Program-made: the position numbers and the translations under genes
Notes under the pieces: generated by a model
Seen by the model: the letters and a program-made list of their open reading frames with translations, nothing else
Database searches by the model: none
Told to the model about the DNA's origin: nothing
Part shown: piece after piece, positions 5,286 through 64,000 of the stretch
Layout: each line of letters starts with the position of its first letter
How positions within the stretch are numbered: position 1 is the first letter of the stretch
Source of the DNA: Deuterostichococcus epilithicus
Lineage: Eukaryota; Chlorophyta; Trebouxiophyceae; Prasiolales; Stichococcaceae
NCBI GenBank assembly: GCA_033439295.1
Contig: JAVTLE010000016.1
Coordinates: 186,001 to 250,000, forward strand
DNA: 64,000 nt
Direction: 5' to 3'

Positions 5286-7510
5286 ATGGCGGCGCCGAGC
5301 GGCGAGCCGGCGTCGAAGCCATTTCTGCCAGGCCCGCTGCCGGACGCTGCACCCGTGGGCGGCACCCGGTTGGATGGCCGCGGCTACGAGGACTTCCGCC
5401 CCGTGTGTGAGCAGCCGTGCCCCTCGGTTCTTGCAGCCAGAAACTCGATGCATCCTCTGTTCCTTCCGTGCCTGCAGCAGCCGCCTCGCCACATGGTCGT
5501 GGCGACGGCGGCCGCCGCCGCTGGGTTTTGTTGCAGCGCAACGTGTCAGCACTGCCGGGAGGCCCCGCCTCGCCTCCCTCCCCATCTGCCTGGTGTGCGC
5601 CCACTGACGCATCCAAACCCCCTGCCGCCACCCGCCGCAGCCCTGCGCGCTGGCCTTGCCAACCAGGCCGCGGGCTCCGCTTACCTCATTCCCTTCCAGG
5701 CTGCCCACCTTGCCTCTACCCACGCAGTCATGCGCACGGGCGTCGTCAGCCAGGCCGCCGGCTCAGCCTACCTGGAGCAGGGGCGCACAAAGGTCATGGC
5801 GGGGGTGTACGGCCCCCGGCCCTCGGACCGGCGGGAGGCCTTCTCCGAGCAGGGCACCCTGAACGTGGACGTCAAGCTGGCGTCCTTCGCGACGCGCGCC
5901 CGGGGCCGCGTGCAGCAGGTGTGCGGCCGTAGCAGACGCCGCGACCGCCTGCTGTACTGACGCGCTAGTGGCGGGGGAGTGGCGATGTCCTCTGCCGCAA
6001 GCTTCTGGAGGGCATCCAGCTGGGCGCCCATTATCGGCGCGAGCCTGTGATGCTCCCAGGCGATGATGCACCAGGCGATGATTGCGAGCTGTCGGGAATG
6101 CGCGCGGATGCACAAGGGAGCAAATCAAGCCCAAAGCTGTGTCGCCTCATGTGTTCCCACTCAACGCCAGTCTATGAAGCTTAAACCCTAAATCCCGCAG
6201 ACACCGGCGGAGCGGGAGCTGTCGGCGCAGGCGGCGACCGCGCTGACGGGCGCGGTGCGGCGGGACGCCTTCCCTAAGGCACGCGAACAACCCCAAAAGC
6301 ATGTCGTCCGCCCTTGGTGGGATGCCTGCTCCGGCGCGCAATGGGGAGGAACCTTTCTCGAGGTGGATCCGCCACGCATTCCAGTGAACCCTGTCAACCG
6401 CCTGCATTCGGCAGACGAGCAGTCCATCAGGGTGCTTGACGAGAAGGGGCGATGCTCGGTCGGGCTGTCCCCCAGGCCGCCGTGGACGTGTGGATGTGCA
6501 TCCTGGAGGCGGATGGCAGCGAGCTGGCGGCCGCCATCACGGCGGGCGCTGCGGCGCTCGCTGACGCTGGGGTGCCGATGACCGACCTGGTGGCCGCCTG
6601 CTCGCTGGTGGGGTCTGGTGTATGGAATCTGGTGTATGGAATCGACGAGGAGCATGCGGCACTGGCTGCCGATGGTTCAGTGTACGCGAATCCGCGGTGG
6701 AGGCGCCGCGCCAGTGGCTTGCTTGCAGAGACCTGGTCTGCGCCTCGACCAGAGCTGACCGTCTCCTGACCCGAGTGCGCCACTGCCTGGCACATGTTGC
6801 ATGCGCTGCGCCGAGCCCTCCTTTCTTTTGAGGTCCTCTGTTCGGCTGCGGCTGCAGGCGCGGCTGGGAGACGACCTTGTGCTGGACCCCTGTCACGCAG
6901 AGCAGCAGCAGCAGCGCGCCGGCGCAACCGTCGCCGTCATGCCCACCGCCAGCCTGGTGCGTTCTGGTCAGTTTGCAACAGCAGTCGATGACGCTTCGAT
7001 TTCGGTCGGTCCTTTGCTGCCGAGCAGCAGCAGAATGACGCAGCCGTTGCCCCCATGCCTGCCGCAAGCCTGGTGTGGCCTTGTGCGAAAGATCTGATCT
7101 CCGTCATGCACATCAGAGGTTGAGATGGATGGCGCGTACGCACTGCTGGCGGCTGGACCTGTGCACATACAATTACTGAGAGGAGCTTCTGTGCAATTTG
7201 GCGGGATTTTGCCTGAGTTGATCAGCGGCAAGGGAATGGCATGCGGCTTCAATTACACAAGTCCATTTCACGCAAGTCAGGCAGTCACCTTTCATTGGTC
7301 GTGATTCATGGGCAGCAAACCCTGAACCGTAAGCCCAGGATGACGGCGCGGCCCGCGTAGGTGACTGGAGCGCTGCTGACGGGCGAGTGGCCGGGCGACA
7401 GCGCGCGCGATGCGCTGTCGCTGGCGCTCGGCGGCTGCGCGCAGCTAGACGCGGTCGCTCGGGAGGCGCTGCGGGAGGTGGCCGCGCCGGCGGCGGGGGT
7501 GGCGGAGTAG
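5286..7510 (+). CDS. MTR3: exosome complex subunit, RNase PH-like (MTR3 / RRP41-like)
   Basis: One of the six RNase PH-like subunits that form the ring of the RNA exosome, which degrades and processes RNA 3' to 5'. Six exons close in phase: 5286-5406, 5728-5918, 6201-6278, 6475-6606, 6858-6956 and 7361-7510, about 257 residues. The N-terminus carries RLDGRGYEDFRPV, the family's DGR...RP entry. Then come RTGVVSQAAGSAYLEQG, GVYGPRPSDRREAF, GTLNVDVKLASFATRARG, FPKAAVDVWMCILEADGSEL and AALADAGVPMTDLVAACSL, all matching the Arabidopsis RRP41L/MTR3 pattern. Its short form and LEADGSEL segment favour MTR3 over RRP41. Intron 3 appears to begin with GC after TTCCCTAAG, a GC-AG intron. Degenerate copies of exons 2 and 5 sit in the flanking introns (listed separately). 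Confidence 0.88.
5645..5686 (+). repeat. intronic echo of MTR3 exon 2
   Basis: These 42 bases in intron 1 align without gaps to 5732-5773 at the start of exon 2, about 33 of 42 identical. They would encode RAGLANQAAGSAYL against the real RTGVVSQAAGSAYL. It is a degenerate partial duplicate just upstream of the exon and is not used in the phase-closed model. Confidence 0.75.
7015..7073 (+). repeat. intronic echo of MTR3 exon 5 and its donor
   Basis: This segment repeats the end of exon 5 (about 6895-6960). Both show a GAGCAGCAGCAG run, then GCAACCGTC or GCAGCCGTT, CCATGCC, and the exon edge AGCCTG followed by a gtg donor. The copy lies about 120 bp downstream inside intron 5 and is diverged. 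Confidence 0.65.
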
Positions 7511-48657: not shown

Positions 48658-51188
48658 TCAATCCGCTGCAACCTGCTCGGCCGCCAGCTGGGGAAAGCAG
48701 GCGGCGAAGGCCGCCTTGCCATCGCGGACGGGCGCAGCCGTGTGGCTTGGGATGACGCTGTCGAAGTCCCACTTCATCACCGCCTTGGCCCACTCCAGCG
48801 TGCCCTGCAGTTATGCGGGGAGCCTTGGAGTGACACATCACGCACTGTTTCTGCGCCTTGAGTGATGCGGGTCGACCACACCAAGCGGGTTGAACACACC
48901 AAGTAGGTGGATCGGCTTTCTAAAGTATGTTTCATGGAAAGCTCGCCTGAGGATGACGATCGAATAGCGTGATGAAGAAGGGCCCCAGGCGCTGCCATAC
49001 GCCCAGCCGCTGTGCAATGAAACGCCCGATGGCGCTGCCGCCCCACGCTTCGTCGATCTGAGACACAAACGGACACTTGCCACCGCTGCTGCCGTGCCAG
49101 CCATTTGAAACATAGCGGCATTGAAGAGACAGCGCCGCTCAAAGCCAACTAGCATGTAGACATGCATGCACAGACCCCTATTGCAGCACAGATTCTGACG
49201 CTCCCAAAACCTACCAAGGCAAAACCTCACTGAGATTGTCGGCGCACGGAGCCCGCCACAGCACTGACGGTATACTTCGACACCAGCAGCGTGCGGTGCA
49301 CCCTAAGCAGGCAGACTCAAAGAGGTGCGACAGCGGCGAGACTGCGACCGCACCATGACGGCGTTGTCGGACACGAGCAGCGTGCGGTGCGCCTCGAGCA
49401 GGAACGCGGCCTCCAGCAGTGACGGCGTGTCCAGCAGGGCCACATGTACCTCGCCACACCACTCGGCCGGGCCGCCATCGCCTGTGTGACGTCAGTCAGA
49501 CCATCACGAATTGTCGATGAAGAAGCAGCCGAGGAAGAAAGCAGGGCCTGTCTTTGGGTGGCACCGACCGCAATGCAGGAGTTTCTCATGGCTGATCGCG
49601 CCGCATCGCTCAGCGCCGCAGGCATGGTGTGCTGGTCAGCGTCAAACCCAGGGCACTGAGGCAGCAGGTTGCGCCATGTGCAAGTGGGCACGCTTACCAA
49701 ATGTGCGGCACCTTCCTGAGCTGCGCAGCTCCTTCAGCCCCGGAGAGGGGAAGGGCACCCGCCGGCCAGTGAAGAAGCCTGCAGGCGCGGCACGCATACG
49801 CCTGAGGAATGAAAGGGTTGTGCACAAAGTGTTTGGCCTGCATGCTGCAACAGGGGTGCCAAAGGATGGGCGACGGCGATGTCACTGGGAGGGTTTGTGG
49901 GAAACAAGAGTACTGTCGTGCCTGGTACAGTCCAGACCGTGGCCTCTGGAAACTGCTCGGCGAATCTGCCAAGAAAATACCTGCACCATAGGTATACCCT
50001 GGGTTGGCGTTGCAGCAAGGGTTGCAGCGGTGGACTTATGCCCAGGACATGCAAAACGCACGCCTGCCTGCACATCTCCAGGCAGCGAGGTGTGGAGAGG
50101 CGAGCGTTCTTCTGCATGAGCCTGCTGCCTAGGGTGTGTGTGGCGGCTCACCAGTGTTCAGGAAAGCCATTTGGCACGACGATGTGCGACACTGGGCCAC
50201 CTATACCGCGCAGCGCCGCCAAGAGCTCCTGTGTCGGTGCGATCGGGTTGTGCACCTGCAGTATGGACGGCTGCAAGGCCGTCAGCAAGGCGTTTGCCAA
50301 CCAACAGCAGATGGCTGCCGTCGTCACCGCTAGAGTCCTTCGCACAGCGGTTTGCGGCCCACGAGTGCAGGCATCTTTCGCATTTGGTTTCCCGCAGCGG
50401 CGCGCGTGCCCTCGCCACCCAGCGTGCGGCAGCGCTGCGGCGTCCCCGTCGCATGGCGTGCGGCGGTCATCTCGTTCACATGAACAATGGCTCTTCCTTC
50501 AACAGCACAGGCCGGACCGTGATTGGAGCCCAGGGGGTAGCCTACCCACAGGCTGCCATCCTCCATGCGCATCGCCGTGAGCCGCAGCCCGGCATCCCCA
50601 CCCGGCAGCAGAAGCGGCTGCGTCGCTGTCCACAGCCCTTCGGCCAGCCGTTCGACGACCGTGGCCCGTCCCCGCGCGGGCGGAAGCAGCGACCAGTAGC
50701 GCTGGTCTTCTCGCAGCTTGCCCAGCTTCGCGCCTGCGCCGAGGTGCAGAATGATCCTGAGGCCGGTTGTGTGCTGAAAGACACAAGAGGCACGAGATGA
50801 TGAAATTTTGGAAAGAGCTGAATCAGAGTGCTGGTTCAGTGCTGATTCAGGAGCAAGGTGTCATACTGGGTCGACTGCCGAAGCTGCCTGTAGGGGGTAC
50901 GGACGGTGTCAAAGAGCGCAAGGTGCCGGCGCGGCGGTGAGCGGTCTCACCCGTGGGGCCGATGGCATCAGCCTGGAAGAGGGCAGACGATGCAGGCGCA
51001 GACGCAGGCCTGCAGGCTCGGCGGCTCGGGACCTCAGCCTGCCTGGACTGTCGGTTTCCATGCTGCCTCAAGCTGGCGCCGTGCCGCAGAAGCGGTGCAT
51101 TGCCGGGCGGCACCCGCAGCTGGCCGGCAGGGATCACCATACTGGATCGTGACAGGCTGTCGCATGCTGCTGCACTCGCTCCGTGCAT
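48658..51188 (-). CDS. DUF4336 family protein, probably plastid
   Basis: A plant, algal and cyanobacterial family of unknown activity with a metallo-hydrolase-like core. Exon 1 (51188-50951) encodes a 79-residue Ser/Arg/Ala-rich leader (MHGASAAACDSLSRSSMVIP), likely a plastid transit peptide. It ends in phase 1 at a gtgaga donor. Later exons read REDQRYWSLLPPARGRATVV, ERLAEGLWTATQPLLLPGG, DAGLRLTAMRMEDGSLWVGY, NPIAPTQELLAALRGIGGPV, VSHIVVPNGFPEHW, YFLGRFAEQFPEATVWTVPG, EVHVALLDTPSLLEAAFLLE, AHRTLLVSDNAVMV, KIDEAWGGSAIGRFIAQRLG and EWAKAVMKWDFDSVIPSHTA, then stop. The APT.E.L..L and W.FD.(I/V)IPSH motifs are the family marks I rely on. The usual His of the ILP.YEHK loop appears as FPEHW. Intron borders between 50560 and 50800 are partly unresolved. 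Confidence 0.75.
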
Positions 51189-51879
51189 TGTGCTGGCCGT
51201 TGCAAGACACGCGCGGTTGTTGTAGCTTATTGTAGCTGTACAAATGCACAGAAAGAGCCTGGCCAATCGACAGCAGTTGGACGGCTATGAAACTCCTCAA
51301 GTGTAGCTGCTCGATGTATCGATCGAGATGTGCAAGTTCTTCATTGAAACTTGTACTGGCGCCTCGAAACCGGGATGACAAATATATGATGTCGTGGCAG
51401 CCCGTTGGGTGTTCCAAGAGGGAAGACACAATGGACATCGCGCCCACCCCATCTCACCGACAAGAGGATACAGCGTACTTGGGCCGGCCCAGTCGTCAGC
51501 TCCCTGGCAAGCTGACTTTGCGCTGCACCATGCTGATGATTTTGACGAGGCGACTATTCTGTTCCAGGTACCCATACTGCACTGCGGCGCATTCTGCAAT
51601 GCTGCTGCATTTTCGCAGTCAAAGTGCTTCCCTGGGTCGACGGAGCCTCTGAGAAGGTTACAAAGTGACAGGCGGGCTACAGAAGCTGGCAAACGGCCAT
51701 ATACATTCCAACACTTAAAGAAAAAAGTGCGCAACAGGCAGGATGCAGCTCGAAGAGGCTTCTGCAAGTCGAAGTGCTGCTACAAAACCACATAACCGTC
51801 CCGATGTTCGTCAAGCTGTGCTGAGGTGGGTACAGATAGGCTGCCTATACATGCACATTGCTCGATACCCCTGTGCTAT
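51189..51879. other. intergenic stretch upstream of the DUF4336 gene
   Basis: About 690 bp between the DUF4336 start and the stop of the septin/FG gene, both minus strand. No exon is recognised. Confidence 0.5.
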
Positions 51880-54127
51880 TCATCTGCGGTGGTGGCCGCG
51901 GCCGCTGCCACGGCCGCGCCCATGACCGCCCTGCGGCGACGGAGTGGCACCCGCGCTGCTGGCGTTCGTGCCGTTGTTGCCCACGCTGCCGCCCGTGCTG
52001 CTGCTCGCGGTGGTGGCGGACCCAAAGCTGACGAATGGTGCGGAGGCCGCCGTGGGGCTGGCGGCCGCGCCGCCGCCGGCCGCCGTAGGCGACACCGATG
52101 CCTTGGAGCCAGCATGATGGTGCGTCGCGCCAAAGGCACGAGAGGCGCGTGCCCTGGTGCCGCCGCCCGAGCCGAAAGCCAACGGGCCGGAGGCGGCGGG
52201 CGCCGGCGCCGACGACTCAGGCGGCGCGGGCGAGGCGCTGGAAGCGGCGCCATTGCCGCACGCGGAGCCGAACGCCACGGGGCTGCCCGAGGCCGCACGC
52301 TGCTCCTGGCATGCGGCGGGCGGCGTCAGGAGCGCTGGTACGGGTCCCGTTGCAGCAGCCCTGCCCCAAGGACTTGTTGCCGCAGCCGCGGGCGCCACAG
52401 ATGCCGCAGGAGTTGCCGCACTGCCGCTAAAGCGCGCAGAGAAGGCGGGCGCCCGACCGGCGGCATGCCCCGCGGGCGGCGTCACAATAAACGCGGCGCT
52501 GCCGGTCCACGGCGGGCTGGCGAACAGGCGGCCGGGCGGCGGCGACGACGCGTCGCCGGGATTTGCCGACTTGGGCTTTTTGGCCGCAGAGGCACGCGGC
52601 GTGGACACAGCGGACGAAGCGGTGGCGGCGGCGCCGGCGGGAGCCAAGTTGGCGGAGCTGGATGCCGGCGCGAGGGACGCGCCCGCTGAGGAGGCCGAAG
52701 CGGCAGCAGATGCCGCGGGTGCAGCCGCCGCGGCGGCCGTCCGCGGCGCCGAGGCGGGCGCAGCCACGACCGCCGCGAAACTGGCGGAGGCGGCCGGCTG
52801 CGCTGATGATGCCGCCACGCCGGCAAAGCCGCCGCTGAAGCCGAAGGAGGGCGACGGCAGCCGGAAGGGTCCGGCGGGCGTGCCAAAAGGGACCGGTCTT
52901 GGCGCTACGCCGAGCAGCGACGGCCCGGCGCCGGACGGTGCCGGTTGGGGCCCGCTGCTCGCGCAGGAGGCTGGTGCGGCAGACGCTGCGCCGGCCGCCG
53001 CTGCGCCGCTGGCTGCGGCAGCGGGGGCATCGGCGGTGACGGCGGGCTTTGCGGCTGACTCGACTGACGGCTTTGAGATCACGCTTGCGGCGTCGGCGTC
53101 GGCGGCGGCGGCGGCACCGAACGTCACGCCGCCAGCCGGGCCGGAAGACTGCGCCGCCAGGAGGCCGAAGGGCTGTGTCGCCGCCGCCACGCCGGCGGCG
53201 TGCTGCCCAAAGGCGGTGGCAGCCTGGAAGGCGCTCGCTTGGCCGAAGACCGGCGCGCTGGCGGGCGGCGGGAAGGACAGCAGGTGCGTCAGGGTCGGCA
53301 CGCCGCCGAAGACGAACTGGCCAAGCTGCGGCGACGCGCCAAAGGAGTAGGGCTTGGCAGCGGCGGCCTGCAGCACACAAAAACCTGGTCAGCAGCCAGA
53401 GATGTGCGAGCGCGAGAGCAGTATGGGTCAGATCAGGCTTGCAGGGATAACGTTGACTCCTTCATCATGGGACGCACGGTCAGGGTCCTGGCCAGTCCGG
53501 GCAAGGACATGCCTGCAGGTAGGGCCGGCCATCCATCGTCGGCAGGACCAACGGTGTGACGACGGCAGCGTTGGCGTGCCCCGTGCCGCCAAAGCCGCCA
53601 AGCCCGCCAAACCGTGCCCCGCCGAAGTCGCCGCCGCCATCGATGTGCGCTCCAACCTGGCTGAAGCCCGCCGGCTGGCTGACGCCGCCGAACACGAAGC
53701 TGGGTGCGGCGGGGTTTAGCGGTGAGCCGCCCACGGCCGGCGCGCTGGCCGTGATGGCGTTGCCGCCGGCGGTGCTGCCATCTGACGAGCGGCTGGAATC
53801 CGGTGGCGATATACTGGGCGTCCCATCCGCAAGCCGCAGCCTGAAGGGCCCGGCAGCGGGCTGGCTGCCGGGCGGCGCCGCCGCGGCTGGGGATGCGCCG
53901 CCGACCATGCCCAGGAACAAACCAGACAGCTGCGCCGTTGCTGCTGTCAGCGTGACGGATGACGTGGCCCGCTGCATGGCCCGCGGCGGCTGCTGCTGCT
54001 GCGGCGACTGCTGCATGGCGAAGAAGCCTGTCGACGCCTCTGCAGCGGCGGGGCCAGCACCACCGTCGCCGCCACCGCCAGCCGCCGCGGCCGCCGGAGC
54101 AGGCGCAAAGACGGGACACGCTGGCGG

Positions 54128-54178
<51 letters not shown>

Positions 54179-57100
54179 GGCCGGCGCCGCGGCGCAGTGC
54201 GAGCCAAAGGTGGGCAGCGACGAGGCGTCGCTGGAGGTGTCGGGGCCCGGCCCTGTGGCGAGGCTGCCGGCAGGTGGCCGCCCAAAGCGGATTCCGATGC
54301 CCAGCTGCAGGGTGCAGAGGAGATGTCAGCTCAGCAGCATCCTCAGGGATGAGATGCAGTGTTGCAGCATAACACTTGGATCCTCCGAACCCATCTGCAG
54401 GGATTCCGTCAGACCTCCCAGCCTCGAATCAGAAGCAGGGGCCCCCTGTGCAATGCGCCAGACAGCACAAAAAACCAACCCCAGGAGAATGCAGGATTGC
54501 ACCCGGGGACCGCCATCCAAGTCGCAGCGGTGCGAGGTGACTGTACTGCTCGTTCCCTTCCGAGCCCTTAGAAACCCACCTGGTAGTCCTGCCACCGCAG
54601 CTCCTCGGGACTGAGGTCCTTGTACTCGGCCATGGCGGTGACGTGGTGCAGCCAGGCGCCAAAGACGTGAACGCTGCTGCTGCTGCTGCTGCTGGGGCCG
54701 GCGCTGTCGACCGGCGCGGTCCGGCCCTCGTCGCAGCGGGTGGGGCGGTACATGGGGAACCGGGTGCCGGTGCCGCCGGGCACGGCAAAGGCCTGTGGCA
54801 CGGCGCAGCCTGTGGCACGGCGACAGGTTGCGATGCGTCAGGAGCGCTGGTCTCGCATGCTGTCTCAGGGCTGCAGCTGCAGCTCGATACAACGAGGCAC
54901 CATGATGACTTGGCTGCATTAGACATTCGCAGCGCAAGCGAGCAGAGGTGGCAGCCTCTGCTGCCTTTGCAGCGGGCACCCAAGCCGCCTGCACACCTGT
55001 GAAGGGGGCGCTCACAAAGGCGGGCACTGCTGCCGCCGCCGCCACTGCAGGCGCTGGCTGCGAGGCCGCTGTAGCGGCTGCCGCCTCGATTGCTGCTGCA
55101 GCAGCTGCTGCCTCGATCGCCGCTGCAGCTTTTGCCGCCGCCTCCTTGGCACGCTGACTGTCCATCCAGGCGGCAAAGCGGGCTGCCTTGGTGGCGCGCA
55201 GCTCGTGGTGTCCTTCCTCCAGCACCAAACGCCTGCACACAAGACAAATGGGTCACTTCAGGATCTCCAGAACTGACTGCGTTTGCCCTCAGTTTGAAAC
55301 GGTCAGCTCACTCCTCGACAAACTCAAAATCGATGGCGGCAGGAGGGTGGCCGCGCTGGCCATGCACAGAAGATAAACACCAACATCCAAGGCAACACGT
55401 TTGACGTCAGGTGCTGCATCTGACGCCGTCAGCGTGCAGGCACTGCGGACAGGCGCACTTGAGCAGCATCAGGTCGGAGTGCTCCGGGTTGAGGGCCTCC
55501 AGCGGCGCCCCGGCACGCTGCCGCCGCAGCGGCCAGGGCGTCTCGTGCGATTCCGACAGGCAGTCGCCAGCCACCACTGCCGGCAGGAAGCGCGCGTCGC
55601 GCACGCCGGCCGCCGCGAGCGCAGCCGCGGAGAAGCGGAATGGGCTGCTGTTGCTGTCAACGCCGCCGCCGCCGGCGCCGGCCGCAGGCTGGGCACTGGA
55701 CGCAGTGTCGGACGAGTCTCCGGCGTTGGCCGCCGCGCTGCTCGTGGCCGCTGGCGAGTCACCGTCTGCATGGCAACACGGCGTTTCCCAGAGGCGCTAA
55801 CTGTGCCGTTTTGCAGAGGCTGAGCATCTGCAGATGGTCATGTGTGCAACCCGAACAACGAAAGTCCAGCGTGCATGGGAACAGCCGGCGCCACAAGGGA
55901 TGTGCTTCGGCTGCGGTGGGCGCCTCCAGCTTGTAAAGCGCCACACAACAGCCGTACAACACAAATCGGTTGCATTGGTGCACCTGGGGCGGGTGACCCC
56001 CCGTACAGCTCAGCGGCAGCAGTGTCCCGCACGGCCGCGACCTGCTGCATGGGTAGCACGTCGGCGCATGCCAACACGGGCAGAACCGCCACATGCGCTG
56101 CGAGGCGCCGCAGGAAGACCGCGTCCGCAGCAGCCAGCTCCCGCGGCGGCAGCAGGTACAGGCAGACGTCCACCTGCGAGTTGGATGGATGACGGAATCC
56201 TATAGACATGAGCGCTTCGCATTTGGAGCGTGGAGCATCCTTGGCATCAGCAAAGCACGGCAACATGCCTCGTGTGCAGTAGGCGCTTGCCGCATCAGAT
56301 GCGCTGCTGGCATGCATGCAGATGCTGACTTGAAAGTCTGTATGCTTGAAAGAATGCATGCTTGGAAGCTGCACATGACTTTTGGTCAACAGGACCGTCA
56401 GGTGCCGCAAGCAGACGCCGCTGCCGGGGGTGATGCCAAGACACGAAAGCAGGTAGGTCACCAGATGGCTCAGACTGGTGTCGGGAAGCAGCGATGGCGG
56501 CGCCGTCGCCTGTCGCACGGCGCACGTTTCTAGAAAGTCCAGCACTGCAGCAATGTTGGACGACACGTCCAGTTCGTCGCCATACCTGCGCCCAGGGCGC
56601 GAGTTTGGGGCAAAGCATGCCCGGCTCGGCTGGGGTCATGGGGTGTGCCATCAGCTGCCTGCCGCTGAGGTGCCTAGCAGGCAGCGCCCCGGGATGCAGG
56701 CGAGCTCATGCTCACACACAGCAGCACAGGACCATGGGCGGGCGCAGCCAAAGCCCACTGCATGACCTGCGCTGGGCCAAGCAAATTGGTTCAACAGCTA
56801 AGAAATGTTTTCAGGGGTTGTTAGCGCACCCGGGGGCCTCCTGGATGGTGTAGACGAGCGTCGCGGTGTCCGACAGCGGCACCGCCACCTCCGTGGCCAG
56901 CGCCTCGGGTGCCTCACGGAAGTTGGCAAGGCTGGCCGTGGCGCGGGGGCCCTGCTCGAAGACGCGAGCGCCGGCGTAGGACGCCAGCAGGTTACGCCAC
57001 AGGGTGGTCTTGCCGACGCTGCGTTCGCCCACGACCAGGATCTTGACGTGGTCCTTACTGACGCGCGGTGGGATCTGCGTGCGCAACGGGTGAATGATTT

Positions 57101-57792
57101 CCTCAGTTTAGGTGCCGGGCAGTCGATATGATGGGAATTCGGCCTGGCAGTCGAGCCGGCAACATTGTAGTCCACTTCGACCACCGGCAGCGACGCAAAC
57201 TTTGTGAAGAGCACGCCACAGGAACTGCATCTCACCTTTGGGCATGTGCGTGAAGCATGGCTGAGAGCTGCGGCAATGTCCACCGGCGCTGCACCACCTA
57301 CGAATGCAAACACAGGGGGCTTCGACTGTTGTGCGCTGTACCAGCACCTGCTTCAAGCACTCACGGAGCGGGCACGCGACACTCCGCTTCATCTGTATGG
57401 GGGACCTTCGAAGTCGGGCGCAGCAGACTTGGGAGTACAGTCTCCTGCTGTTCATTCGTGTGGGCATCAGCAAACGCTGCATATTGAAAGCATCTCTGAG
57501 CTTCAAATTGGGCGTTTTCATTATTGTCGCCAAGCTCCGAAGTCGATGGCTTTGTTCGTGTCGGAAGGTTACTGTGGATGTGAGCAGAGCGGTGCTGCAA
57601 AGTCCCGCCAGATCCATTCTGGTACCATGGAAAGATGATCAGACATTTCAAATACTCACTTGTCGCCTCGGAGCTCGACATATTCCCCTCCTGCTGCGGG
57701 GCTGTCGTCTTGCTCGCATCGGTGTTGTGACTCTCCGCCGGGCTGGCCTCAGAGCTGCCGCTGGCGCGCAGATGCACAAAGGCATCGGTCAT
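51880..57792 (-). CDS. septin GTPase fused in phase to a GLEBS / FG-repeat nucleoporin region
   Basis: The first half is a septin: exons 57792-57660, 57297-57236, 57074-56830, 56585-56462, one from 56173, then 55765-55459 and 55232-54997. They give KILVVGERSVGKTTLWRNLL (P-loop), QEAPGYGDELD (G3 region), DVCLYLLPPRELAAADAVFL, PVLACADVLP (G4 region), NPEHSDLMLLK and a charged tail RLVLEEGHHELRATKAARFA with Ala/Glu helix. The tail exon ends in phase 1 (ACAG/gtgtgc) and matches exon 54809-54580. That exon reads GTGTRFPMYRP and AMAEYKDLSPEELRWQDYQ, a GLEBS motif as in Nup98 (Gle2/Rae1 binding). From 54304 an FG-bearing, low-complexity region follows, then a last long exon (about 53369-51880) with many FG dipeptides (YSFGASP, QFVFGGVP, VFGQ, AFGQ), ending GGHGRGRGSGRGHHRR. 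No Nup98 autoproteolytic domain is present. Two overlapping genes remain possible. The donor after the 56173 exon and one GC donor near 53515 are unsettled. Confidence 0.75.
54130..54177 (-). repeat. (CAG/CTG)16 trinucleotide run encoding poly-Ala
   Basis: An uninterrupted CTG run on the + strand. In the reading frame of the FG gene (minus) it is read as GCA, giving about 15 Ala next to APAPAAA and ACPVFAPAP. The poly-Gln and poly-Leu frames are shadows. Confidence 0.85.
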
Positions 57793-58466
57793 GGCATCCG
57801 ATCTGGAGAGAACAGTGGCTCTGATGCTGCGAGCAACTCGCTTCGGCTCTCGAATATATACCTGGGGGTCGAAGAGGGTCATGATCGTCGGAAGGAGAGG
57901 AAGCATCACTCCGTATGGGCACGAAAGATATCTCTCACTGGTTGGCGCGTAGCTGAAACAGGGTACGTAAGGATGACGGCCAGCAGGTCCTCCAGCATCG
58001 TCGTTCAATCCCAGCCCGCACCCCGCAGGACTGCCACAAACACCACCTTCACGTCTTCTGCAGCACCAGTCACTACCGCGCTTTTCCATATTCTCAGCTT
58101 GGTTTTGCCTCGCCGGTACGAACCTCTGAACGCCGGAGATGGCCGCTAGCAGTGTTCGAATTTTGAGGGCCTAGCGCCAGACGCCTCTGCCCTTACATTT
58201 ATTCGACCTACTGGCGCTGACCCAGTACAAACCGGCCAGCGCAGCCAGCGTGCGCAATTTCTGAAACCTCACTTCACTGGCTGCCGCACACCTGCGAGTG
58301 TCGACTCCTGCAGGCAAAGTTTTCACACTGCTCAAATTGCGCCATGCACATGCATTCATGCATGAGGTTTCCGTGCACCGCGGCCAGCTGAACAGGAAAG
58401 AGGTCATGCATCAACTGCCCGGCTGACCTACCTCCGTACCTACCGCCTGCCACAGGCGGCCGCGCC
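57793..58466. promoter_or_regulatory. divergent intergenic region, septin/FG gene and ERMP1-like gene
   Basis: About 670 bp between two start codons pointing apart, so both promoters should be here. The stretch 57860-58090 keeps some open frames on the minus strand (VYIREPKRVARS, EDVKVVFVAVLRG), so the septin gene may start further upstream than 57792. No core promoter element is recognised. Confidence 0.4.
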
Positions 58467-61400
58467 ATGTCGAGCAAGCAGCCAAAAAACGGAAGAAAGG
58501 CTGCGACGCGTCACAGTCCGAGCTTGTGGGGGCCGGCATTGCTGGTCCTCTACTATGCAGTAGTGGTGCGCACGAAGCCGTGCAACTTGCATGCATGCAT
58601 GCATGCATGCATGTGTGTAGCACAGGTTATATCTCGAGGATGCTTGTGTTGCTTGCATCATGTAGAGCGTCCGACATCTCGCCCTGCGCAGGTGGCCTTG
58701 TCCTGGCGCAGCGTCTGGTGGGTGCCCACACCGCAGCCCGCCGATGCGCCTGCTACGTTGTTCTCAGAGGGGCGTGCCATGCAGCAGACCTCCGCGCTGG
58801 CGGACGACATCGGCGACCGGGCGGTGAGCTCGAACTGGCGTGTTCACTGTGCCTCTCTAGCAGCAGCCTCGGAGCAGGCTTGCTGGGCCGCCATGATCGT
58901 GGCGCCGGCCTCTTGTCTCTCTGCGTAATTGGGCACTCATACTTGAGGACCTGAGACAGAGTCAACGTACCTCACCGCCTCACCAAGTGCGATCACTCTT
59001 CCCACATACGTTTTCATGGGTCAAATGATGGCCTATCTGCATGTGTTCTGCAGGTCACGACGCCCGGCAACAGGGTCGCAGCAGCGCACCTGTACGCTGA
59101 GGGCCTGAAGCTCAAGGAGCTGGCGGCGCAGCACCGTCCTGACCTCGACGTCCAGGTGCCTGTATTTCAAAGGAGTTTTCAACAATCCGATTGACACAAG
59201 CAGTGCCACCTGCAGACCGTGGAGAGCACTCTGGAGAAACCGTGGGTCGGACAGATCCAGACGGCATGCGGGTGCCTGTGCGCTGGTGACGCATGATGGG
59301 CGATGCGAGCATGCATGCGCCAATGGCGAACAGATTCGATGGAGTCCTCGCGCCCTTTTGGACAGCAGAACTTCGACAGCCGCATCTGTGTGTCACGACA
59401 GCCGCATCCGTTTCCTGCCTGTCTGGCATCGCTCCTGATGGTCCACCATCACGGCCACCGCAGGTGGACTGGGAGAGCGCCTCGGGCGCGGTCAACATGG
59501 TGCTCATCCATGAGTACATCACCAACGCATACCGCAACGTCAGCAACGTGGTGGTCGCGATAACGCCGCGGGCGCTGCCGCCCGGCGCCAAGGCCGTGCT
59601 GCTCAATGCGCACTATGACAACACGCTCGGCTCTCCAGGTGAATGCTGCAAGACTTGAGCCGGACTCGTTAGGCCGAAATTATACGCCACCGACGCTGAC
59701 CTGCTGCCGATGGCATTTTGCGCGTCCTCATGGCAGTGCCCCAACAGGCTCTGCATCCTAGGTACATCGTGGCAGCTGTTATGAGCTCAGACGCGCATGT
59801 GGTGCTGTTCCTGCCAAAGGTGCGTCCGACTGCGCCTCCCGTTGCGGCGTGCTGCTGGAGCTGCTGGCCCGCCCTTCGACCTGCATCGCAGAAGCTGGAA
59901 GCGCAAGCTGGACTCCTCCCATGCTGACTGTGACGCTCCCGACGCAGGCGCATCCGACTGCGCCTCCTGTTGCGGCGTGCTGCTGGAGCTGGCCCGCACC
60001 ATCATCTCGGACGCGGCGGTGCCCATCCCCGCGCCGCTGGTGGTGCTGCTGAACGGTGCAGAGGAGACCTTCCTGCAGGCAGGGCGCTGCTCCTTCTGTT
60101 GCTGTCGCACCCTGGTGGACGTCGCCGTCAGTCTCACCGGCTTTGGCGCCAGTGCCGCCGCGTGCGCGGAGCGACTAAAAGATGCAGGGTGCACTCTGGG
60201 GGTGCACTCCGGCGTGCTGCCCTGCTGTGCATGCCAACCCAGGGCTTGCCTGCCTTGCCCTGCAATCCTCACTTTGCAACCCCGCATGCAATGCAACGCA
60301 ATGCACGGCTTCCTCCAAGTAGGCACCGCAGACCGCCGCCTGCATCAGCTTGCATTCCTGACCGTGGGCCGTCTCGCGCACCACTGCAGCGTAAAACCCT
60401 TACAAAACCCTGAATACAGGCGTCGCACGGCTTTGCAAGCAGCTCCAGGTGGGCGCCGCGCATCGGCGCCTTCATCAACCTGGAGTCGACCGGCAGCGGG
60501 GGCCCGGACGTGCTGTTCCAGCACACAGGCCACTGGACAGTGGCCACCTACGCCAAGAGCGCGCTCACGCCCCGCGGCAGCGTCATCGGCCAGGTGGGCA
60601 CAACTGCTTTTAAGTTCACACTGTCACTGGTGCTTGGTTTGGCTGCAGCCTGCACGGCCCCTGTGGTTGTGGCATCGACTCGGCTGCAGCGCCATCCACC
60701 GTGGACGAGCATTCCTGTGGGGCTGCGATGCGGAGAGTTGCTGCAGTCTCGGGCGGCGCCTCGCCTGGCTGCCGGCAGCAGGGCTTCACGCCCGCTCGCA
60801 TCTCGCCAGCCCAAACCCTCTTTTTCCTGCCACACCTGTGACACGAGCCTGCTGCCGGCGGGCAGCGACTGCCAAACCCTCAGCAGGGGCGGAGGCTGGC
60901 AGCAACAATTCATGAAATCATGCAGCTGGGCGCAAAGTGGAGTGTGCAAGTTGCAAAATGCAAAGTGCAAGCCTGTTCTGAAACCCGCAGGACATCTTCG
61001 ACATGGGGCTGCTGCCAGCGGACACCGATTTCCGCATGTTCAGCTACGGGCATCACGGAGCGTGGCCGGGCATCGACATCGCGTTCCTGCTGGACGCGGC
61101 CGCCTACCACACCGACCGCGACGTCACCTCCCGCATCCGGCGCGGCACCCTGCAGGTTTCGACACCTTCCATCGGGGACTGTCACGTCTCATCGTGCGGC
61201 AGCGGCAGCTGCCCATGCTGAGATTGCTCCGCCTCAGTCGGCCGGGCGGTCAGGGGCAGTGTCACCTGACACGCTGCGAGCAGGCGCAGACAGCCGCACA
61301 GAGGAAGCTGCATCGCGAGAGGCTGCATGCTCCGTCCGACCGCCTGTTACCTCCTGCAAGCCTCAGCAGTCGTCCCTCCCCCTCCACCACCGCAGATGGC

Positions 61401-64000
61401 GGGTGACAACCTGCTGCGGGTGGTCCCAGCCTTTGGCGCCGCGCTGGCGGGCGGCGCGGCAGATGGCGCTCGCGGCACAACGCGCGCCTCCGCCTACATG
61501 GACGTCCTCGGGCTTGTCATGGTGCGCTTGCATGCTGGCGGAGGCTCCACAGTGCATGTGGAGGTGTGTGCACTCGTGTTTAACCCTTTGAGCGACTGGA
61601 GAGGATGGGTACCTGAACGGGACGGCGGTGTCGCAAGCTGGTGTGGGGCCCAGCGAGGAGCCTTCGATGCCGCACAGCGCCCTGCTGCTGTCGCCGTCGG
61701 CGGCAGCAGTGTGGGCGGCATGACTCGGTAGCATGCGTGCACTGTCTGTCCGAAACCTTCCGGTGCCATCATTGAAAAAGAATCAAAAGCACCGCGCATC
61801 ATTGCAACCTGTGCGCAACCTGTGCACAACCTGTGCACAACCAGATCACCTGGTCGCCGGCTGTGGCGCGCGTCCTGCACGCGGCGCCGCTGGCGCTCGC
61901 AGTGCTGCTGGCGCCGCGCGGGGGGGCTGCCGCTGCGGTCGCTGGCGGGGCTCGGCGGCCGTGCCGTCGCCGGCGCAGTGCTGGCCGCCCTGGCGCCGGC
62001 GGCCATGGGCGTGCTGCGCGTTGCGCTCTTCGGTAGGGTTTCTGCAGTGCCCTTCGGAAGGTTGTTGACCGCCGATCGTGTGATGCAGAGTGCCTGAGCC
62101 GCTGCCCGTGCTGCATGTCGTGCAGAATATGACGCCTGGCACGTGAGCATGGCATGGTGCATTGCCGTGCCGGGCCTGGTGTCGCCGGAAGGGCAAGTTC
62201 CGCTGCAGAAGCCGCTTCGTGGATGCTGAATCCAGCATCGCTTCTGCTGCGGCAGCGGCACTTGACGCAACCTCTGCTCCGGCTGCAGGCAGCCCCATGG
62301 TGTGGTTCGGCAAGCACCTCGTGGCCTACGCCATCTACGTGCCTGCTGCACTCGCCGGCCTGCTGCTGCCATACGCCGGCATCTTTTCGCGGACGCCGCC
62401 CCCGCTCACAAATGGCGCCAGGGCCGCGGCGCCTCCGCCGGCGCTGGCGCCATTTGTGAGCGGGGGCGGCGTCNGCGAAAAGATGCCNGCGCCGGCGCCG
62501 GCAGCCAAGCTGCTGCCGCGGCAGCGGCTGCCGGCGGCGCTGCTGGGCTGGGCGGCCGGCGGCGGGCGCTGGCGGCGGCGGCGACGCTCGGCGCGGGCCT
62601 CGCCTCTGGCGGCCTCTTCGCCATCTGGGGTGGCATCGCGCTCGCCGCGTCCCTCCTCACTCGCAGGGTATGAGCGTTTGCGTGTTTTTCGTGCAGTTCC
62701 GATCAGTTCCGGTCATGTACTCCAAACATGCAGCCTAAGAGATGTCTGAAGCTTGCAAGCTTGCCTGCACCCCTTCTGATTGGGTTGAACTCTATACCGT
62801 GTTCCCCAACAATACAAGTGGATACTGGCCGCAGCAGCAGCAGCAGCAGCAGCAGTGTTGCAACCAACCGACTGCATTCGTCATTGCTCCACCGTCACCG
62901 CTCATGTTCACTCGAACTCGAGGTGTTCGACCCTGTCGAAAGTGCACGGCATGCAGGTGGCGGTCCAGTGGCAGGCGCCGCTGGTGGCGGCGCTGGCGAC
63001 GCCGGCATCGCTGCTCATGGTGGCTGGCGCCATCAGCTACAACACCCACGTCTTGGACAAGGTATGTTGCTGCAACTGCTGCGGGGCGGCGTCTCCTCGG
63101 TGCTTCAGGACGATCCCTGGAGCCACGACTCGCACGTCCTGCACAAAGCGGTACTGGAAGCTTCCTGCGGGGCGTGCGCCATGGCCTTGCTGGCCTGTAA
63201 TGCATTTAGTGAGCGCAGTGACCAAAAATCGCTCTTTCTGTTGGAAGTCCCAGTTGAACGGCCATTCATTGTCGGCAGAGCCCAGGTTGGAGCAGCGCAT
63301 CCTGCGCGCATTGCTGCAAAGCCACGTGGTGTCCGCGCGCAGGTGACCATGTGCGGCAGCCACCCGCCGCCCGTGGGCCCTTTTGTCGCCGACATCGCCG
63401 CCGGCGCGCTGCAGGGCGTCGGCGTGCTCGCGGCCGTGGGCCCTCTGGCACCCGCCATCGCCGCCGCCTTTGGTAGCCGCTTCAAGGTGCGCGGGCGGGG
63501 CCTGTGCGGCGCAATCGTCTTCCCCCTGATCTTTCCCCTGGGACCCACGGATTCTTGCTGTTGTGAGTGCGCTGTCTCCGTCTGGTCGACTGGAGCAGCG
63601 GTGTCGGGCTGCCTTTCAGGCCGTGCCCGACCCACCCACCAGCAGCGAATGCCACTGGCGCGCTCCTTGCATGCGCCTGCAAGCCTTCGAGTGACGACTG
63701 CAGCAGAGAGGCATGGTGACAGACCGGGGACCTAGCGAACCCTGGTACCCTGTCTCTGGCCGCAGGTGCTGCTGACGAGCCTGCTGCTGGTGTCGGGCTC
63801 CGCCGCCGCCGCCGCCTCGCTGACGCTGCGGCCGTACACCGTTCTGGCACCGAAGAAGATCGTGCTGAACCACCTGCACAGCCACGGGCCCGGCGCCACA
63901 CCCGCAGGCAGCTTCGCAGCATGTGACTCGGTCAACAGCAGCAGCGGCACATGTGCCGCCGCCGTCGGCGGCGGCAATTTCGAAGACGCCGTGATGAGGT
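58467..64000 (+). CDS. ERMP1: ERMP1-type M28 zinc metallopeptidase, ER membrane (partial, 3' end outside window)
   Basis: Family members sit in the ER membrane with a lumenal M28 aminopeptidase-like domain and C-terminal membrane helices. Exon 1 gives a polar N-terminus and a first membrane helix (SLWGPALLVLYYAVV). Later exons read FSEGRAMQQTSALADDIGDR, VTTPGNRVAAAHLYAEGLK, VDWESASGAVNMVLIHEYIT, LLNAHYDNTLGSPGASDCAS with metal-binding His and Asp, VLLNGAEETFLQASHGFASS with the catalytic Glu pair, RIGAFINLESTGSGG, TDFRMFSYGHHGAWPGIDIA, YHTDRDVTSRIRRGTLQ and MAGDNLLRVVPAFG. From about 61860 on, exons encode hydrophobic segments (LALAVLLAP, FGKHLVAYAIYVPAALAGLL, LVAALATPASLLMVAGAISY). The last visible exon has LTLRPYTVLAPKKIVLNHLH, like the family's cytosolic or lumenal tail. 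The intron after ETFLQ starts with GC. A region at 62382-62487 is disturbed (see repeat). Confidence 0.87.
58588..58613 (+). repeat. (TGCA)n microsatellite in intron 1 of the ERMP1-like gene
   Basis: About six tandem TGCA units followed by TGTGTGTAG. It lies just after the exon 1 donor. Confidence 0.85.
59819..59880 (+). repeat. intronic echo of an ERMP1-like exon start
   Basis: CGTCCGACTGCGCCTCCCGT, then TGCGGCGTGCTGCTGGAGCT, then GCTGGCCCGCC repeats the exon at about 59947-60000 (CATCCGACTGCGCCTCCTGT, TGCGGCGTGCTGCTGGAGCT, GGCCCGCACC), which encodes the metal-site segment ASDCASCCGVLLELAR. The copy precedes the exon by about 125 bp and is near-identical, so it is young. Confidence 0.85.
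62382..62487. repeat. near-perfect inverted repeat with undetermined bases
   Basis: The left arm (about 62381-62420, TCTTTTCGCGGACGCCGCCC and CCGCTCACAAATGGCGCCA) is repeated in reverse complement at about 62448-62487. A short GC-rich loop lies between. Undetermined bases at 62474 and 62488 fall in the right arm. It sits inside the ERMP1-like gene between membrane-helix exons. It could be a real hairpin, but an assembly artefact is at least as likely. Confidence 0.75.
62832..62856 (+). repeat. (CAG)8 run
   Basis: A short CAG microsatellite within an intron of the ERMP1-like gene, just upstream of the VAVQWQAPLVAAL exon. Confidence 0.8.

Follow-up and report, generated by a model that had tools for sequence, protein, structure and literature searches.

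Septins are filament-forming, membrane-associated proteins, and Nup98 is a nucleoporin held at the nuclear pore by its autopeptidase domain. The locus described here raises the question of whether a septin and the part of Nup98 that comprises the GLEBS (Rae1/Gle2-binding) motif and the FG dipeptides are carried by one and the same gene. It lies in a stretch of 64,000 nucleotides of the green alga Deuterostichococcus epilithicus (positions 186001-250000 of contig C14, hereafter the window), and the whole-genome scans covered the 46.8-Mb assembly of this organism in 21 contigs. Three other contigs are referred to below, C5 with the Nup98 locus, C9 with the canonical septin and C7 with a second autopeptidase-type gene.

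On the minus strand of the window, ten exons between 57792 and 51880 are spliced into a single continuous frame of 1268 amino acids, and the nine intron phases (1, 0, 2, 0, 1, 2, 1, 0, 0) are all consistent across the model. The product is septin-like at residues 66-380, contains the GLEBS exon at residues 433-509 and then extends into a low-complexity FG tail of 759 amino acids. An initial annotation of the locus had placed septin, GLEBS and FG repeats in one frame here, and this holds: the phases fit, the septin part exceeds the Pfam cut-off and exon 8 is homologous to the GLEBS exon on C5. In our judgement one gene likely encodes a chimera, in which a degenerate, probably non-hydrolysing septin would be followed by an Ala-rich, probably helical linker, the GLEBS motif and the FG-bearing low-complexity tail. 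The domain architecture is new while its parts were already known, and it is perhaps restricted to one lineage.

Gene structure and flanking signals

The model comprises the following elements.

57853..57860, minus strand: TATA-like box, TATA[AT][AT] at 57860/57858, 68 bases 5' of the proposed ATG
57660..57792, minus strand: exon 1, with the proposed start codon at 57792 and a low-complexity N-terminus, frame open from 58170
57236..57297, minus strand: exon 2, fits by phase, weak acceptor
56830..57074, minus strand: exon 3, septin P-loop GERSVGKTTL through a degenerate G3 (EAPG), matched by Pfam Septin
56462..56585, minus strand: exon 4, YGDELDV region of the septin
55984..56173, minus strand: exon 5, septin VDVCLYLLPP; in alignments the arginine finger (R-finger) is lost (RE for HR) and G4 is degenerate (ACAD)
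55459..55765, minus strand: exon 6, with the Ala/Ser/Gly insert and the C-terminal septin element WPLRRQRAG...NPEHSDLMLLK
54997..55232, minus strand: exon 7 (junction exon), opens with RLVLEEGHHELRATK; last septin helix RLVLEEGHHELRATKAARFAAWM leading into the Ala-rich linker; in-frame Met at 55165
54810..54996, minus strand: intron 7, 187 bases, phase 1, links septin to GLEBS at the same place as the pre-GLEBS intron of Nup98
54580..54809, minus strand: exon 8, GLEBS exon, GTGTRF...AMAEYKDLSPEELRWQDYQ
53513..54304, minus strand: exon 9, low-complexity tail with FG, proposed GC donor
51880..53367, minus strand: exon 10, FG-bearing tail ending in GRGRGSGRGHHRR and a stop codon, without autopeptidase domain
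51658..51662, minus strand: TGTAA, 218 bases 3' of the stop codon, with no other TGTAA on the minus strand from 51000 to 57900

The TATA-like box and the TGTAA, which we take to be a green-algal type of polyadenylation signal, stand at the two ends of the model. Between the septin and the GLEBS-FG halves, neither a TATA-like site nor a TGTAA was found on the minus strand, and apart from 57860/57858 the only TATA[AT][AT] between 51000 and 58000 on this strand is at 51386. Since at least one TATA-like site is expected by chance in 100 nucleotides with a probability of about 0.013, and a TGTAA in 220 nucleotides with one of 0.062, both signals count as support and not as proof.

The junction between the two halves

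Exon 8 starts in phase 1 and so needs an upstream coding exon; the matching phase is supplied by septin exon 7, whose 3' end at 54997 is also in phase 1. The stop codon that the initial annotation had reported just upstream of the nucleoporin exon is indeed there, since the open stretch of the GLEBS frame begins at 54837. With splice matrices derived from 11 introns that lie outside the window (in the C9 septin and the C5 Nup98), the exon 7 donor CAG|GTGTGC scores 10.1 bits, within the top 1.4% of 291 GT, with a runner-up in the gap at 4.9, and the exon 8 acceptor at 54809 scores 8.6 bits (8.61), within the top 3.8% of 345 AG. Four alternative exits from exon 7 were tested: three lead to frameshifted tails and the remaining one, through a donor at 54900, also gives a fusion. 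Retention of intron 7 gives a 655-residue septin with an off-frame tail, and the in-frame stop near 54326 that had been noted for a read-through septin was found again, the frame ending after 54329. Codon usage, trained partly on exons 1-7 themselves and on the GLEBS exon of C5, clearly prefers the chosen frame of exon 8 to the other forward frames (0.457 versus -0.115 and -0.156).

Taken together, the phases, the Nup98-placed intron, the splice strength and the flanking signals support the fusion well as one open reading frame, and on this sequence evidence it is probably expressed as one protein. A tandem repeat of GCCGTGCCACAGG was also observed at 54792-54821 (minus strand), which creates acceptors at both 54809 and 54792, a distance of 17 bases; of these, 54809 alone preserves the GLEBS frame from exon 7.

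The GLEBS exon and the Nup98 of this genome

Whole-genome profile scanning found GLEBS only twice, in the window and on C5 (41.3 bits). An autopeptidase domain lies approximately 3 kb downstream of the C5 GLEBS, which identifies the C5 gene as the canonical Nup98. The alignment of exon 8 to the GLEBS exon of C5 scores 89, a value that none of 2000 shuffles reached (maximum 47), while the second-best of 1065 open stretches of the window reaches 54; run as a genome search, the match has an E-value of 0.007 and 47% identity. The GLEBS core PEELRW-DY is retained.

The exon borders agree as well, as is read directly from the DNA. Both GLEBS exons start in phase 1 and end in phase 0 directly after the DYQ/DYA codon, the stretch from the exon start through TGTR counts 17 and 18 residues in the two exons (DNA read by eye), and the preceding intron opens with GTGTG in both genes, the C5 donor being CAG|GTGTGA in phase 1. 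At the DNA level, the window tail and the C5 Nup98 share only short matches of up to 34 bases, so either the tail evolves fast or its transfer dates far back.

The C5 gene (locus L008, C5:1945000-1954900) is itself worth describing. It is a canonical Nup98 whose autopeptidase domain ends in HFSRYG, which presumably resembles the cleavage site, and then continues as in Nup98-Nup96 precursors. In parallel, a second gene of the PF04096 autopeptidase type was seen on C7 (locus L010, C7:2893000-2902900, at about 5700-6900) with no GLEBS match, and the open stretches of at least 90 amino acids listed around it contain at most one FG each.

The FG tail

From residue 431 on, the product contains 19 FG dipeptides in 838 residues, as compared with a mean of 5.5 and a maximum of 14 in 2000 shuffles. 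They follow the spliced frame closely: exon 9 has six in this frame and none in the five others, and exon 10 has 12, against at most one in any other, which gives 18 in the spliced frame of both exons versus two in all remaining frames combined. This frame is open over the 759 codons of exons 9 and 10. The C-terminal autopeptidase domain PF04096 is absent from the window tail, and its four matches in the genome are all on C5 and C7. A run of AGC/GCA repeats at 54130-54177 (minus strand) within exon 9 encodes poly-Ala and is likely to vary in length.

The septin half

The spliced septin part matches the Pfam profile PF00735 at 53.4 bits (E-value 3e-14, cut-off 26.2). Its top match among solved structures is PDB 5irr (9.5e-32), presumably the Chlamydomonas septin, and all 43 matches listed were named septin or yeast Cdc-septin. 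Scanned exon by exon with Pfam Septin, the genome gave C9 as the sole match and the window septin was missed; a scan with protein P0002 found both, the window exons with E-values of 9.6e-5 and 0.002. The gene on C9, of which a partial model of 364 amino acids was built, is the canonical septin of this genome.

Some septin motifs are conserved in the window and others are lost. The G1 P-loop GxxxxGK[ST] is present as GERSVGKT, PGYGD and EHSDL are conserved between the window septin and proteins P0001-P0003, and EALNPEHSD is retained. On the contrary, G3 (DxxG) reads EAPG where C9 and P0001-P0003 have DTPG, G4 ([AT]KAD) reads ACAD where C9 has AKAD and P0001-P0003 have TKAD, and the R-finger, which most non-opisthokont septins have beside the S3 His, is missing, with PPRELAAAD in the window and PPHRLRPID in its counterpart. 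Here HR was taken as the arginine finger, whose location was inferred from part of Delic et al. 2024 (PMC11238149). The YPWG of the septin unique element is likewise replaced (RRQRAG in the window, RRYPWG in C9, P0002 and P0003, RSYKWG in P0001), and its Trp is not universal, the retrieved septin P0036 reading KYTYG. The window septin further carries an Ala/Ser/Gly insert some 35 residues long and is missing the hydrophobic C-terminal segment of the C9 septin. The septin domain is thus degenerate and probably non-hydrolysing, judging from these motifs.

Loss of the R-finger in some copies was reported for many algae and protists with several septins, in which hetero-oligomers were suggested, in the part covered of Delic et al. 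2024 (PMC11238149). With a canonical septin on C9 and a finger-less one in the window, the present genome fits this pattern. In a tree of 41 septins, built without eight rows that were short or partial (P0037, P0041-P0047), the window and C9 septins were grouped (99/98); their branches are extreme (10 and 5.6 changes per column), so this placement is distrusted and they were assigned to no septin group. Since the intron positions of the two septins differ, a recent duplication is unlikely.

Alternative explanations

Several observations weigh against a single fused gene with a working GLEBS motif. At the splice sites, intron 9 requires a GC donor, the intron 1 acceptor at exon 2 is weak (1.3 bits, a score reached by 49.6% of AG), and a competing, frame-shifting acceptor at 54792 is stronger (9.45) than the one at 54809 (8.61). 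Codon usage separates the forward frames of exon 7 poorly, favours the exon 9 frame only narrowly, gives another forward frame of exon 10 a higher score than the chosen one (0.217 versus 0.192), and gives exon 8 an equal score in a reverse-strand frame (0.461 versus 0.457). The Pfam GLEBS profile reaches 21.7 bits on the spliced protein and 25.3 bits in the genome scan, below its cut-off of 27, and the matches of GLEBS to solved structures are four and weak (E-values 0.047-0.071), so that profiles alone would not settle the nucleoporin identity. In addition, the N-terminal half of the exon 8 GLEBS is loosely conserved, and an FG density of 19 in 838 amino acids is low. Protein searches gave negatives of the same direction. 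The first 795 residues (with the septin at 66-380) were used as a query among relatives of nominally 437-1391 amino acids, and three septins of 447-480 amino acids were found, one of them named Gonium and none of them fused; profile A1 found no match among 7998 scored candidates of nominally 697-2219 amino acids. Both are weak negatives because approximately 8000 candidates were scored and the queries are rich in Ala words.

The locus could make two products, a septin whose transcript ends within exon 7 or beyond it and a GLEBS-FG protein of its own, started by an internal promoter or at Met 55165 or 54753, which we consider unlikely. From in-frame Met 55165 in exon 7, normal splicing of exons 7 and 8 would yield linker, GLEBS and FG without the septin, intron 7 retention would give the 655-residue septin, and the frame-shifting acceptor 54792 is the stronger of the two; nevertheless, the halves are separated by no TATA-like site and no TGTAA, the tail of the retained-intron form crosses exon 8 in a frame of poor codon usage (-0.16 versus 0.46), and a start at Met 54753 loses the N-terminal half of GLEBS. 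The initial annotation had held that the only local Met would cut the motif. That is what Met 54753 does, but the GLEBS frame contains two Mets (54753 and 54633), and the further claim that an independent start is hard to place was overstated, because Met 55165 in exon 7 had been overlooked. Separate translation of a septin and a nucleoporin reading frame from one bicistronic mRNA is a serious rival because green-algal loci are known with gaps of about this length: 187 bases here, against median distances between reading frames of 183 nucleotides in Chlamydomonas and 40 in A. protothecoides (PMC11291117, in part). In these known loci, the first reading frame is short (medians of 357 and 291 nucleotides) and start codons are depleted before the second one, which fits leaky scanning, as described in the same portion of that source (PMC11291117). 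The septin part before the junction is neither short nor poor in ATG, having 1297 nucleotides and 12 ATGs, and once intron 7 is spliced no stop codon separates the halves, which makes this arrangement highly improbable.

Just as improbable is a decaying or chance chimera without function, that is, a pseudogenised Nup98 fragment beside a divergent septin. The degenerate septin motifs, the GLEBS score below the cut-off, the low FG density, the absent autopeptidase and the weak codon signal in exons 9 and 10 would all agree with it, whereas a tail of 759 open codons whose FG dipeptides nearly all keep to the spliced frame, the intact GLEBS core and the EAPG shared with the relative P0046 would not. 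Finally, the fusion may be real with a GLEBS that recruits Bub3 instead of Rae1, making the product a mitotic and not a pore-related adaptor. This is a sub-case of the single-gene chimera, with overlapping odds, and we give it little credence. GLEBS motifs also occur in the Bub3 partners Bub1 and BubR1, and Rae1 binds the Bub1 GLEBS (PMC4695854, in part). Against this, three of the four solved-structure GLEBS matches bear the name Nup98 or Nup98-Nup96, the other being a peptidase S59 domain protein, exon 8 is the exon of Nup98, and FG follows GLEBS as it does in Nup98. Bub3 is a less likely GLEBS partner than Rae1/Gle2.

Possible origin and role of the chimera

If one gene encodes the septin, the GLEBS and the tail, a copy of the GLEBS-plus-FG part of Nup98, together with its pre-GLEBS intron, most likely landed behind a second septin gene. 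The sequence shows the continuous frame, the homologies, the common place and phase of the intron and the lost motifs; expression as one polypeptide, co-assembly with septins, Rae1 binding and the place in the cell are inferred. The septin domain would join the canonical C9 septin as a non-catalytic subunit and thus provide the anchor, the GLEBS would hold Rae1/Gle2, and the tail with its sparse FG would interact weakly with transport or import receptors or with FG nucleoporins. Pore, mRNA-export or mitotic factors might in this way be recruited to a septin-marked membrane at the nuclear envelope or the division site. With the autopeptidase absent and a septin domain at the opposite end, the protein is most simply read as having its pore anchor replaced by a septin one. 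As the septin half is degenerate and the tail is without autopeptidase, neither half is assumed to act exactly like its parent.

A bolder and more tentative proposal, which we would hold possible and not probable, is a septin-anchored, pore-like module, in which the anchor of Nup98 is swapped for a non-catalytic septin and Rae1 and a cohesive FG phase are carried on septin filaments, as a covalent septin-FG barrier or a Rae1 platform located at the nuclear envelope or the cleavage site. A ciliary (gate) role is not favoured. Profiles of IFT46, IFT57 and IFT81 had no genome match, with a control set that lacked a ciliated genome and in which IFT46 and IFT81 were silent throughout; the IFT57 profile matched three archaeal controls below the cut-off.

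A covalent fusion of septin and nucleoporin would, if true, be a natural 'fused-gene' type of evidence for cooperation between septins and pore factors. It would also illustrate the re-anchoring of a Nup98 module and allow a direct test of whether Rae1 or an FG phase can be borne by septins away from the pore. In the literature covered, the prior link between septins and the pore rests on a septin-silencing phenotype in a ciliate (PMC4519060) and on the binding of SEPT12 to NDC1 (PMC5133908, in part).

Relatives and known systems

Profile A2 (8000 candidates scored) retrieved 47 septin relatives of 201-675 amino acids, the nearest named ones being chlorophyte septins. None of the 47 contains the GLEBS-core pattern and each has at most two FG. 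Viral contigs and prokaryote genome contigs contained no relatives, as expected. The initial annotation knew of no such fusion, and none was found among these 47 relatives or in the titles and abstract openings listed from the open-licence literature, in which natural septin-GLEBS or septin-Nup98 fusions were looked for; with approximately 8000 candidates per protein search and literature of this kind, 'not found' does not equal 'absent'. A review of pore evolution (PMC8421043) does not contain the word 'septin'.

One close relative of the window septin, P0046, is a metagenomic open reading frame of 214 amino acids from a 23-kb contig (source ENA). It matches exon 3 in two pieces that are 78% (32/41) and 69% (29/42) identical and share EAPG, the matching stretch being split by an apparent extra intron. 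Retention of EAPG at 69-78% identity argues against a decaying septin, and a second organism seems to have retained the degenerate septin, as far as this sequence goes.

With green-algal septins (Groups 6A/6B/7, Delic et al. 2024), the window septin has in common the fold as detected by profile, YGDELDV, NPEHSD and the order of elements. It differs from them by RE for HR, Asp to Glu in G3, Lys to Cys in G4, YPWG to QRAG, the Ala/Ser/Gly insert and the GLEBS-FG tail. With the Nup98 on C5 it shares a GLEBS exon of identical border phases, followed by FG, whereas it has no autopeptidase, its FG are sparse and a septin domain, not an FG block, precedes GLEBS. The only multidomain algal septin met in the literature covered is that of the dinoflagellate Symbiodinium minutum, which has 4484 amino acids with SMC and HSP70 domains (PMC11238149); these partner domains are different, and the description in the part of that paper covered does not mention a nucleoporin part. 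Silencing of SEP2 in Paramecium led to patches devoid of nuclear pores (PMC4519060, a conference abstract), and SEPT12 binds NDC1 (PMC5133908, in part). Both systems likewise connect septins with the pore or the nuclear envelope, yet through a phenotype or binding and not within a single polypeptide. In leukaemia, NUP98 and septin genes are each fusion partners, as somatic events, but the septin fusions described in the section covered of PMC12723017 involve KMT2A or NKRF and not NUP98.

Neighbouring sequences

Eight other open stretches that were tested with Pfam gave no match. Alongside them, two overlapping open stretches on the opposite strand, at 59785-61403 (plus strand), matched successive parts of Peptidase_M28 (1.1e-7 and 4e-5), and the neighbouring gene is thus a metallopeptidase.

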